Source: Bacteroidota bacterium (GTDB lineage Bacteria; Bacteroidota; Ignavibacteria; Kapaibacteriales; NICIL-2). Taken from it: a DNA stretch of 38,719 nt. The notes beneath the pieces are model-generated. The model saw nothing but the letters and a program-made list of their open reading frames with translations. It ran no database searches and was not told where the DNA came from. Position numbers and translations under genes: made by a program. Positions 3,264 through 6,474 of this stretch are shown piece after piece; within the stretch, counting starts at the first letter, position 1; each line of letters begins with the position of its first letter. The stretch covers positions 1 to 38,719 of the forward strand of contig JAIBAE010000038.1 in the NCBI GenBank assembly GCA_019695345.1. The letters run 5' to 3'.

Positions 3264-3512
3264 AGCTACATAACAAATTACCATTGACTGGCAACGTGGT
3301 AAGTGATTCAACTCCATTTACATTCATAAGTATTTACATTGCTTTTAAAAAATAAAGGTTTATATTGTGGTGTAACCGGACAATCCTTGTTCCTTTGATT
3401 TATGTTGTACTCCTTACATTTTCCGGTTTAATACGATACATTTAATGGTTTCCTTTGAAAGTTATGAACTCAACATACTTTATATCATTTATCATAAAAA
3501 GGAGTTTCCCTG

Positions 3513-3671
3513 ATGCAGCACAGTTGTTTATCACGTTTCTTTACCTTCCTTAATAGCCATAGGGCTACACTTCGGACTTCGGACTTCGGACTTCGGACTT
3601 CGGACTTCGGACTTCGGACTTCGGACTTCGGACTTCGGACTTCGGTGTGGTATAGTATTTCTACTATGTAG
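3513..3671 (+). other. Out-of-phase leader frame of the phase-variable adhesin gene
   Basis: ATG 3513 follows AAGGAG (3499-3504) with 8 bases of spacing, the best ribosome binding site upstream of the big secreted-protein gene. With the 11 heptamers seen here, translation from this ATG runs through the repeat (reading LRTSDFG over and over) and stops at TAG 3669-3671. The signal-peptide core and the 900-residue body lie in the next frame. Removing one heptamer, or adding two, joins the two frames. It is best read as the true 5' end of the following gene in an OFF state, or as an assembly miscount of the repeat. Confidence 0.65.
3569..3645 (+). repeat. Heptanucleotide tandem repeat, 11 copies of ACTTCGG
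   Basis: Exactly 77 bases, eleven perfect copies of ACTTCGG with no interruption. The unit length is not a multiple of three, and no frame on either strand has a stop inside the repeat (plus strand reads LRTSDFG; minus strand reads PKSEVRS). It lies between a good start codon (3513) and the hydrophobic core of the signal peptide of the downstream gene. Such heptamer arrays are prone to slipped-strand mispairing. Confidence 0.95.
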
Positions 3672-3684
3672 TATTATTCTCTCT

Positions 3685-6474
3685 GTGTCAATGTTTGGGC
3701 AGGGAAATAATATTCCGCTTGATAATACTGCACCTGCAAATCCCGTTAAAATAGGTTCTAGAAATATTGGATTACTGAATAATAGCCCCGTACTTCCACT
3801 TTTGCATTTGTATTCACCATTAACTTCAGACGAACTTTCTATCCGGCTTTCAACCGGAAATGACAACGACGAAGATTTCATTGGCTTTCTATCTTTAGTT
3901 ACAAATGCTAACACGTTATATGCAAGGTGCAGAAATTTATTTAGCGGGACAGATATTGTAAAGCCAGGTGATTTAGTCCTATCTTCTTGGAAGAAGGGTG
4001 GCGATGTTATAGTTACAACAAGAAATCATCAGAGTTCTATTCGTTTCTCGACCACACCTGACGAAAATACTGGAATTGATTATGAAAGAATGACGATACG
4101 AGAGAGTGGTAGTATAGGTGTGAATACCAATAACCCGATTGGTACTTTTGATATAATACCTAAGAACTCTTGGTTTTCAAAACCGAGAATTTCCTTTAGT
4201 ACAGACAGAACAAATGATGGTAATCCATCTATACGATTTTATAGACCAACTGGTAATACGAGTTTACCCGATTTAGTACCATCGTATGTTTGGTGGATAG
4301 AGACAACTTGCGGCACGGATGTATGGAATGCCAATGCAGCAGGTGCAATGAATTTCATGGCAAGTACAAATGGCTTATCAACGGATGTAACACCGGGTGA
4401 TGATAGAGCATTACCGAATCAGCCACCGAATATGTTTACAAGAATGACAATTCGTAATAACGGGAATGTTGGCGTTAACTATGAATTACCTATCAGTAAA
4501 TTACATGTGCATGATGGCTCAATTTTATTCGATGGTATTGTGGGCTCTACACCAAAAAAACACAAAGCATATCCAGGATTACCAACAGATGGAGATGGAG
4601 CACTGCAAGAAGAATTGGGAGAAGGCACACGTTTTATGTGGATTCCGGGGAAAGGTGCTTTAAGAGCAGGCAGAATCTCATCCACTTTATATAATGCACT
4701 ATATGTCATAGGTAACCATTATGGTATAGACGTAAAAAATTACTGGGACGATGAGAATATAGGTTTTTTTAGTGCTGCTTTTGGTGTAAATAATTTAGTG
4801 CAAGGCCCAAGTAGTGTTGCAATTGGCGTAGTTAACACAATACATTCCACGTTTATTGGTTCACTAAACAATGCTGGTGTACCTACAAATTCGAGTGGAT
4901 CGTGCTCCTTAATTGTTGGTAGCTATAATAACATTGATGGTCATAATTCGTTGGGTTATTCTACAGCACGAAGTTGTTTTATTGCGGGAAGTAGTAATGA
5001 AATAACTGTTATTGACCCTAATACACTACCAAACAGTTCGTTTATTCTTGGAGATGGGTGCCATGTGCATGGGTATGCTTCGGGGGCTTTTGGTTATTTT
5101 AATCATACAAATCAAGATGCAAGCTTTGCTATGGGACATCATGTTGAGTGTTTTGAAGAGAACACAATGGGTTTAGGGCAACATTTAGTATTAAATGCAA
5201 ATAGCACGATAGGTATTGGACAAGTACTTACTACTAGTGCTGTTAACTCAATCGTTATTGGTGGTGGATTTCTATATCAGCAAGGGGGTAATTTTTACCC
5301 GCTCGACAATAATATACCAAACTCTCTGATGATTGGTTTTAAATCTCAAACACCGACCTTGTTTGTGGGTGGAAGTGATTTTGATGGAAATTATCAAAAT
5401 GCTACCGAAGCGGACAGAAATAAGTTCGGTAAAGTGGGGATTGGTACAAAAACACCACCTAATTATTTAACTGTAAAGGGTAATGCTTCTATAGGTGCAA
5501 ATTACTCTGGAAGCCAAGCACCGACAGATGGTCTAATTGTAGAAGGGAATGTTTGTATTGGAACCACGACAGAGATTACTTACAATAATGGACAAAAAGC
5601 GAAGCTAAGCGTTAATGGAGTAGCTATGAGGTCAGATGGCTACACAAGTTGGGGAGTGACTTCAGATAGAAGATTAAAAAGGGATATAAGGGTATTCTCA
5701 GATGGACTTGATAAAATTGATAGTATCAAGCCAGTTTGGTATAAATACACCGGAGAATGTGGTACCGATACCACAGAGGAAAAAATTGGAATAATAGCAC
5801 AAGAGATAAAAGAAGTAGCACCATACACAGTAAAAGAAGCAACATATATTCAACGCAGAATCACCACACCCGAAGTAACAGAATCTTATGTACTAAGAGT
5901 TGATACAATTACCAGTAAACTAGGTGAAGTAAGATATGATACTATATTTACTTCTCGTACAATACCTGCTAAGATTGATACTCAAAAGACTAATGTTCTT
6001 ACCTATAACTCACACGCAATAACTTATATTCTGATAAATGCCGTTAAGGAACTCCACGGACTTTATAATACAGTTCAGTCCGAAACAAAAACTACGATTG
6101 ACAGTCTTACACATTCAAATTTAGAATTGCAGAAAAGAATTGTTGCGCTTGAAGAACGTGTCAACAGATTGGAATCGAAAATAAGTATTTCACAGGATAG
6201 TACAGATGATGTAATCCTTGACCAGAATAGACCCAATCCATTCAGCGAAGAAACAACAATTTTTTACTATATACCACCTCGGTATTCAACAAATGTATCA
6301 CTTATTCTAACTGATATTAATAACTCTAATACCATACAAACATATCAACTAAAAACTGATGAGCCCGGACAAATAAAAATAAATGCCGGTATGTTAAATA
6401 AAGGTGTTTACCTCTATTCAATAGTAGCAAATAGTATGATCTTAAAGTCAAAAAAAATGATGGTAATACACTAA
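3685..6474 (+). CDS. Large T9SS-secreted adhesin-like protein with YadA-like head repeats and an S74 chaperone domain; probably phase-variable
   Basis: The open frame starts formally at GTG 3685 (929 aa). Codons before it in the same frame read GIVFLLCSIILSVSMFGQ, a signal peptide that has no start of its own, so the real start is probably ATG 3513 across the heptamer repeat. Domains: a beta-rich N-terminal part; YadA/trimeric-autotransporter-like head repeats (about residues 365-560, many SVAIG / SFILG / NTMGLG units); a peptidase S74 intramolecular chaperone domain starting near residue 653 (motif SDRRLKRDI); a coiled coil (about 790-835); and a type A T9SS sorting domain at the end, with the typical LDQNRPNPF signature. 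It is probably a trimeric fibre at the cell surface. The first three-quarters lack the usual lineage codons and look AT-rich. A lipoprotein gene follows 31 bases downstream. Confidence 0.8.
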   Translation: MSMFGQGNNIPLDNTAPANPVKIGSRNIGLLNNSPVLPLLHLYSPLTSDELSIRLSTGNDNDEDFIGFLSLVTNANTLYARCRNLFSGTDIVKPGDLVLSSWKKGGDVIVTTRNHQSSIRFSTTPDENTGIDYERMTIRESGSIGVNTNNPIGTFDIIPKNSWFSKPRISFSTDRTNDGNPSIRFYRPTGNTSLPDLVPSYVWWIETTCGTDVWNANAAGAMNFMASTNGLSTDVTPGDDRALPNQPPNMFTRMTIRNNGNVGVNYELPISKLHVHDGSILFDGIVGSTPKKHKAYPGLPTDGDGALQEELGEGTRFMWIPGKGALRAGRISSTLYNALYVIGNHYGIDVKNYWDDENIGFFSAAFGVNNLVQGPSSVAIGVVNTIHSTFIGSLNNAGVPTNSSGSCSLIVGSYNNIDGHNSLGYSTARSCFIAGSSNEITVIDPNTLPNSSFILGDGCHVHGYASGAFGYFNHTNQDASFAMGHHVECFEENTMGLGQHLVLNANSTIGIGQVLTTSAVNSIVIGGGFLYQQGGNFYPLDNNIPNSLMIGFKSQTPTLFVGGSDFDGNYQNATEADRNKFGKVGIGTKTPPNYLTVKGNASIGANYSGSQAPTDGLIVEGNVCIGTTTEITYNNGQKAKLSVNGVAMRSDGYTSWGVTSDRRLKRDIRVFSDGLDKIDSIKPVWYKYTGECGTDTTEEKIGIIAQEIKEVAPYTVKEATYIQRRITTPEVTESYVLRVDTITSKLGEVRYDTIFTSRTIPAKIDTQKTNVLTYNSHAITYILINAVKELHGLYNTVQSETKTTIDSLTHSNLELQKRIVALEERVNRLESKISISQDSTDDVILDQNRPNPFSEETTIFYYIPPRYSTNVSLILTDINNSNTIQTYQLKTDEPGQIKINAGMLNKGVYLYSIVANSMILKSKKMMVIH

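Follow-up and report, generated by a model that had tools for sequence, protein, structure and literature searches.

The window analysed here is a 38,719-nt stretch of DNA (contig JAIBAE010000038.1, positions 1 to 38,719) from a member of the Kapaibacteriales, deposited as Bacteroidota bacterium in assembly GCA_019695345.1. Our subject is a heptamer array at the 5' end of a gene in this window, on the forward strand, as are all window features given below. The gene opens with a Shine-Dalgarno sequence, AAGGAG (3499-3504), followed after 8 bases by ATG 3513. The start codon and the n-region of a signal peptide (MQHSCLSRFFTFLNSHRAT) occupy 3513-3568. They run directly into 11 perfect copies of the heptamer ACTTCGG (3569-3645). 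Past the array lie the hydrophobic core of the signal peptide (GIVFLLCSIILSVSMFGQ, 3646-3702) and, in the same frame as the core, a stop-free body of 942 codons (3646-6474), which is predicted to encode a fibre adhesin resembling MAT, YadA and S74 proteins with a C-terminal domain of the type IX secretion system (T9SS) type. Tandem Repeats Finder gave the array (11.0 copies, 100% matches) the top score among its 15 rows for the window. A three-unit ACTTCGG pattern had 9 overlapping matches in the window, compared to 0 in 100 dinucleotide shuffles.

A heptamer consists of two codons and one base, so every frame of the array reads the heptapeptide LRTSDFG in rotation, and all three frames are free of stops. 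As assembled, the frame from ATG 3513 passes through the array for 52 codons and ends at the stop codon 3669-3671 (3513-3671 in all, the present OFF state). The body lies in another frame, which is closed by the TGA at 3511-3513, remains open from there as far as the TAA at 6474, and contains no ATG, GTG or TTG upstream of GTG 3685. The two frames join when the number of heptamers is one more than a multiple of three (7, 10 or 13). This rule can be seen directly in two 7-copy paralogues, which have the same 56-nt distance from ATG to array and are in frame. A start at GTG 3685 was considered and ruled out, since the product lacks the signal core: its best 12-residue Kyte-Doolittle mean within the first 30 residues is 0.29, compared to 2.87 and 3.06 in the two in-frame paralogues. 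RNA structure in the array as a regulator was also rejected, since the fold z-score of -1.73 was not significant and 15 of 200 shuffles folded at least as well. An earlier, sequence-only reading of this stretch had described the ribosome-binding site with its spacing, the start, the 11 heptamers, the long body in a second frame, the copy numbers that join the frames, and the absence of a body-frame start before GTG 3685, where most of the signal core has already been passed. All of these held. Its further claim, that the gene as assembled is OFF for export, follows from the frames and the missing signal core.

The array is one of a family. In the own genome of the window (4.56 Mb in 163 contigs), ACTTCGG arrays of at least three units occur at four loci only, on the window contig and three others. 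We use G-numbers for genomes (G000 is the own genome), C-numbers for contigs and L-numbers for fetched loci; the four contigs are C44 (the window), C13, C31 and C128. The arrays sit at the 5' ends of the genome's four best Peptidase_S74 (PF13884) genes, out of six matches. The other two matches, a 3768-codon frame elsewhere on C128 and a frame on C5 that is cut by the contig end and whose start lies outside the contig, have no such array. The copy numbers on C44, C13, C31 and C128 are 11, 7, 7 and 8, which gives two ON and two OFF genes. Both 7-copy genes read in a single frame throughout (966 and 954 codons from the ATG). The 11-copy and 8-copy genes are out of frame, and their bodies, of 942 and 953 codons, are stop-free.

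In all four paralogues the Shine-Dalgarno sequence and the ATG are identical, the n-region is nearly so, and the array stands between the ATG and the signal core. Compared pair by pair, their DNA is 25-39% identical from -400 to -160, and the identity then rises to 82-92% from -150 to -1 (in the window 3363-3512, the presumed promoter and leader). It is 70-98% from the ATG to the array and 79-91% over the 57-nt signal core, and drops to 22-49% over the next 300 nt of the body. The paralogous proteins are 35-42% identical to the window copy, and C44 and C128 have a 598-nt block in common at 69% identity. One upstream region, start, switch and signal peptide therefore precedes four divergent passengers. 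Scoring of 40 of the 98 candidates in the own genome turned up no fifth match to the upstream block. Of these 40, 36 cover only a dispersed repeat of about 60 bp, at 80-92% identity. This repeat lies in the window at 3201-3263, 2529-2589 and 217-277, and is perhaps a transcription-end signal or a mobile short repeat.

Other genomes carry repeats of other units at the same site. The named genomes with the best homologue matches are Bacteroidetes and Candidatus Kapaibacterium metagenome-assembled genomes, among which own-genome records may be missing. Between the ATG and the signal core, G002, which belongs to the same family as the own genome, has (CTCACGG)8, in frame. G030 has (CCGCAGA)7 and (CCGCAGA)10, both out of frame, with more copies at contig ends or beside a gap of Ns. 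In G109 (L166, 2106-2168), (ATTT)15.75 is out of frame and the repeat itself encodes the hydrophobic core (LFIY) in every frame. G023 has (CT)19, in frame. G090 has homopolymer tracts C11, C13, G11 and G12, all out of frame. An octamer is present in two of the three searched genomes of one genus, with differing counts: G071 has (GAGTACAA)5, in frame, and G102 has arrays of 6, 8 and at least 9 GAGTACAA units, of which two are out of frame and the other lies at the end of a contig. G075 has (GCTACACA)3, in frame. Two further poly-C tracts in G090 stand at the 5' ends of secreted-looking genes, one (C26; L333, 1501-1510) in frame from a start that has no Shine-Dalgarno sequence and the other (C9; L332, 1501-1510) out of frame. 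Another poly-C in the same genome, on C103, does not lie in a signal-peptide gene and was set aside.

Across the 21 loci with a start, an array and a downstream frame, 6 are in frame, 14 are out and 1 depends on the start chosen. Six of 21 is near the one in three predicted for a switch that drifts freely. One array was excluded from the switch count: in G018:C3 (L238, 9694-9747), from a Kapaibacterium relative, (AAAACCC)7.7 ends 193 bp upstream of the ATG that opens an S74 gene and is possibly a promoter-length switch. That gene stops after 133 codons and resumes in the same frame as a 1032-codon S74 frame. Contigs end inside or beside arrays in G030 (C12 and C14; L289 and L290), G102 (C22; L297) and G090 (L330). 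Since these assemblies break at the arrays, such genes are probably under-counted.

The recurrence of repeats at this site was quantified by comparing homologues in other genomes to control open reading frames (ORFs) from the same stretches. Homologues were tested if they had the N-terminal part in common and their 5' end was in hand. Among the matches listed, 33 reach the N-terminal part, 4 in the own genome and 29 in others. From these 29, G019:C15, G094:C31 and G043:C255 were left out, as were three without a 5' end and G076:C92 (143 codons, with a limit of 150), and 22 remained. A non-triplet 5' repeat was found in 11 of the 22, in eight genomes, compared to 6 of 513 control ORFs (Fisher p 3e-13, uncorrected for kinship). 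The loci are not all independent, as G030 and G090 each contribute several and G071 and G102 form a pair. The test retained any 5'-truncated ORF that bore a repeat, a rule in favour of G102:C22; with this locus removed, 10 of 21 homologues have a repeat. The 11 include the (TA)7.5 of G100, sited at the frame boundary and probably ahead of the start codon, and an array of 3.4 units next to an N gap in G030:C50. Two of the six repeat-bearing controls are really candidates: the poly-C gene in the window, and the G075 gene in its 5' half (its 3' half was entered as a repeat-free homologue). Loci fetched for their repeat (G030 C12, C14 and C61; G000 C148) were kept out of the test. The (CCCCCA)3 at L170 (G090) was uncounted since its unit is a multiple of three.

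The body protein was compared to known families. A Peptidase_S74 domain, an intramolecular chaperone and autoprotease, lies at 5662-5832 (PF13884, 61 bits, E 6.3e-16) and contains SDRRLK, an instance of SDxxxK, the S74 catalytic motif (PMC10769870). S74 is above the cut-off in all four bodies, and each has SDxxxK. Compared to solved structures, a profile built from the four bodies hits a long tail fibre of a phage, the Bdellovibrio MAT protein bd2133, a second Bdellovibrio MAT protein, YadA, trimeric autotransporter adhesins, CbpF and the MYRF S74 domain. YadA head repeats were found in two of the four bodies with Pfam. At E 0.01, the only Pfam families in the bodies are S74, YadA_head and Por_Secre_tail, with no homology to Opa barrels. 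An AlphaFold2 monomer model of the whole body is of low confidence (mean predicted local distance difference test, pLDDT, 54.2), and the likeness to bd2133 and YadA is by profile only. In this model the signal core forms a helix (residues 2-16), and behind S74 a long helix spans residues 788-842 and a beta sandwich residues 856-939.

The sandwich probably corresponds to a T9SS type A C-terminal sorting domain (CTD, 6232-6462), an assignment for the window copy that is supported by family sequence and fold model. When modelled alone, it has seven strands and a pLDDT of 88. Its best PDB fold match is the T9SS CTD of mirolase (E 1.4e-3, template modelling score 0.55), with other beta sandwiches scoring nearly equal and none reaching E 0.001. 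The CTD profile had no match at E 0.1 among PDB sequences. The T9SS type A model TIGR04183 recognises 8 of 12 CTDs of the family with E values no higher than 0.01. SprA, the T9SS translocon and the sole T9SS component searched for, is encoded in the genome (TIGR04189, 867 bits, cut-off 200). The earlier label of the gene as T9SS adhesin-like stands as an inference from homology. A description as an S74/MAT-like fibre fits better, and the T9SS domain of the window copy remains below the curated cut-offs. Judged from homology, the body is probably a MAT/S74-like trimeric fibre adhesin exported by the T9SS. Should S74 self-cleave, as other members do, the fibre would be separated from the sorting domain.

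The phase-variation switch put forward in the sequence-only reading is the best supported explanation of these data, given four paralogues with 7, 7, 8 and 11 copies and other units in relatives. What we observed directly is the anatomy, the cassette common to the four genes, the variation in copy number, bodies that are intact, both ON and OFF frames, and the recurrence in relatives with other units. The array is very probably a slipped-strand translational phase switch inside the signal peptide. Slippage in living cells, cleavage of the signal peptide, export by the T9SS and adhesion are inferred. Translation would begin at ATG 3513. The heptamers occupy the n-region of the signal peptide, between the start codon and the core, and are open in all frames. 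Slipped-strand mispairing at replication would add or remove one 7-bp unit and shift the downstream frame. One phase in three (7, 10, 13 and so on) would give a single polypeptide that runs from the signal peptide through the fibre body to the sorting domain, and the other two would stop shortly past the array and give no exportable protein. With four unlinked genes, each with its own copy number, the fibres could switch independently, for a maximum of 16 surface states. Cleavage of the signal peptide, should it occur, would also take away the peptide coded by the repeat and leave the copy number free to drift while the displayed fibre stays unchanged.

Several observations weigh against this explanation. 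The differences in length are known between loci and genomes, not within one lineage. Three units of ACTTCGG were found in 0 of the 98 other genomes, including 7 of the same family. The control ORFs of the enrichment test include genes for proteins that are not on the surface. Among S74 genes with a 5' end, only 9 of 89 have such a repeat, and 4 of the 9 are in the own genome; outside it the count is 5 of 84 (p 0.011). Ten more ORFs were dropped from this count as cut at the 5' end, and the 9 include G100 with its (TA)7.5 tract. The trait thus belongs to an adhesin sub-family and not to S74 proteins at large, and S74 in general was ruled out as the switched class. The own genome also has an array without a clear reading frame around it, (GCGTGAT)5.4 at L277 (G000:C95, 6511-6548), the sole further heptamer array of at least five units in 398 kb of own-genome stretches that were hand-chosen and non-random. 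In G075 the in-frame starts have no Shine-Dalgarno sequence and the body has a later TGA. In G102:C49 only 18 codons follow the array before the contig ends. Finally, the CTD of the window copy scores 22.9 bits with PF18962 (cut-off 27) and 19.1 with TIGR04183 (cut-off 23).

Another possible explanation is that the array serves chiefly in recombination, with a homogenised 5' cassette swapping promoters and signal peptides among the paralogues and phase shifts as a by-product. The cassette itself, with its 70-98% identity and abrupt edges before bodies as divergent as those described above, speaks for this, as does the block common to C44 and C128. However, such a role leaves the unrelated units at the same site in relatives, a dinucleotide and homopolymers included, unexplained. 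It is also compatible with switching and does not exclude it. As the chief function of the array, we consider recombination unlikely.

The gene could also be expressed in every phase, through ribosomal frameshifting or an alternative start that bypasses the array, in which case copy number would matter little or not at all. RNA polymerase slippage occurs on long homopolymers. The paper PMC3960869 cites a title on ribosomal frameshifting of gonococcal opa (P.II) genes in E. coli. This explanation is very unlikely here, since the body frame has no start codon ahead of GTG 3685 and the signal core is missing beyond it, and retention of the ATG and Shine-Dalgarno sequence in all four paralogues argues against bypass of the array. 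To our knowledge, ACTTCGG is not a known slippery sequence, which also counts against frameshifting.

If neutral slippage had instead grown the array in a dispensable gene, the OFF copies would be dead, decaying or frameshifted pseudogenes. The out-of-frame state of two of the four own copies and 14 of the 21 surveyed loci would fit this, as would the internal TGA in the G075 relative and the stop after 133 codons in the G018:C3 relative. However, both OFF bodies have stayed stop-free over 942 and 953 codons, SDxxxK of S74 is retained in all four, and neutral growth would not place differing units at one position in relatives, which makes decay highly improbable. That the copy number is an assembly artefact, a consensus or collapse of similar cassettes, is scarcely credible even with the contigs of relatives that end inside or beside such arrays (G030 C12 and C14; G102 C22), since the four own loci differ in flanks and counts and ordinary read lengths can span a 77-bp array.

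A broader form of the switch hypothesis, to which we give an even chance, extends to Kapaibacteria as a whole. A portable cassette of promoter, start, repeat and signal peptide would govern T9SS-routed MAT/S74 fibres and their relatives. The repeat would have been reinvented many times at one site, as heptamers of three kinds, octamers, ATTT, CT, poly-C and poly-G, with its drift hidden in the cleaved peptide. The outcome would be combinatorial bet-hedging, with phages or predators as the likely selective force. A conserved position with a repeatedly replaced unit would amount to a natural experiment in the convergent evolution of contingency loci. There is also a warning for annotation: a gene assembled in the OFF state and without a proper start in the body frame gets called minus its signal peptide, as happened in the ORF list of the window.

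The window holds a second candidate switch. A GGAG Shine-Dalgarno sequence (11157-11160) precedes an ATG frame of 22 codons and a stop (11167-11235) that runs past a C10 tract (11180-11189) between the ATG and a signal-peptide core. The body, a T9SS sorting domain protein (11190-12046; TIGR04183, 26.2 bits, cut-off 23), is in a frame that differs from that of ATG 11167, and the gene as assembled would be OFF. Tracts of C9 or longer occur at only two places in the 4.56 Mb, the other one inside a repetitive coding-like stretch. TTG 11153 is a possible start in the body frame, which makes the C10 tract a weaker candidate. Two genes past the poly-C gene, window 13528-15780 encodes an IgGFc-binding-like domain (PF17517, 194.8 bits) and a weak T9SS sorting domain. 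Elsewhere in the own genome, at G000:C25 (L273, 426-448), (ACCGAGA)3.3 comes right after the ATG of another secreted-looking gene, in frame, and is perhaps a young switch.

The next gene downstream of the window adhesin encodes a lipoprotein with a carboxypeptidase-regulatory-like domain (6506-7351). A similar lipoprotein gene follows the paralogues on C13 and C31 and the relative in G030:C86, with three of the four domain scores below the curated cut-off. On C128, no ORF was found after the adhesin gene before the contig end. The adhesin gene is followed by different kinds of gene in ten further relatives that were checked.

We compared the switch to known repeat systems. The sequence-only reading had likened it to the STRR heptamers of cyanobacteria, an analogy that turned out to be weak. 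STRR heptamers are dispersed and mostly intergenic, unlike the four ACTTCGG arrays, which are all 5' coding and in one gene family. Heptamer arrays are found in bacteria, including some Bacteroidetes, and the TAACTGA repeats of Beggiatoaceae lie mostly just upstream of start codons (PMC4679880), whereas the ACTTCGG array is translated. An intergenic repeat of the STRR or TAACTGA type was ruled out, since the array is translated and confined to one gene family. Closer analogues are opa (PMC3960869) and neuO (PMC13001214).

The passenger resembles the Bdellovibrio MAT proteins, which are fibres of about 1,000 residues, many with an S74 chaperone and SDxxxK (PMC10769870). A MAT N-terminal domain spans about 130 residues and comes behind the signal peptide. 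The four-body profile matches bd2133 and another MAT entry in the PDB. In contrast to MAT proteins, a coiled coil and the CTD come after S74 here. The term "phase vari" occurs 0 times in the text of that paper. Like type A substrates of the T9SS, the passenger has a signal peptide and a C-terminal seven-strand beta sandwich with the mirolase CTD as its best fold match, and SprA is present in the genome.

Repeat-driven ON/OFF switching is best known from host-adapted pathogens. For Bacteroides, the excerpt of a recent review names only inversion systems (PMC11868660). In agreement with the sequence-only reading, we found no paper in the open-access literature searched that describes repeat-driven phase variation for a T9SS substrate or for Kapabacteria. 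As far as this literature shows, a switch of this sort is new to T9SS substrates, to MAT/S74 fibres and to Kapaibacteria, and so is a unit that turns over while its site stays fixed. In environmental, uncultured members of the wider Bacteroidota, T9SS fibres are apparently under the control of an opa-like system.

The product of neuO is a capsule O-acetyltransferase with no signal-peptide role, and its repeat-coded part stays in the protein. In neuO of the E. coli K1 phage CUS-3, AAGACTC repeats lie in the 5' coding region and their copy number sets the ON frame; the copy number is not a multiple of three in 42 of 64 genomes (PMC13001214). The ACTTCGG array is likewise a heptanucleotide array in the 5' coding region with the frame set by copy number. 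Unlike that of neuO, it falls within the signal peptide. The opa genes are dispersed Neisseria adhesin genes with CTCTT repeats in the leader-peptide region and slipped-strand translational switching (PMC3960869); their repeat copy numbers are given in PMC5320596. The family described here is like opa in that adhesin genes at separate loci, here on four contigs, each have a non-triplet 5' tract in the leader-peptide region. It is unlike opa in that Opa proteins are Neisseria outer-membrane barrels, whereas in these uncultured Kapaibacteria a heptamer that gives way to other units among relatives precedes an S74/MAT-like fibre that carries a T9SS-type domain. The switch works like opa and neuO but belongs to neither family.

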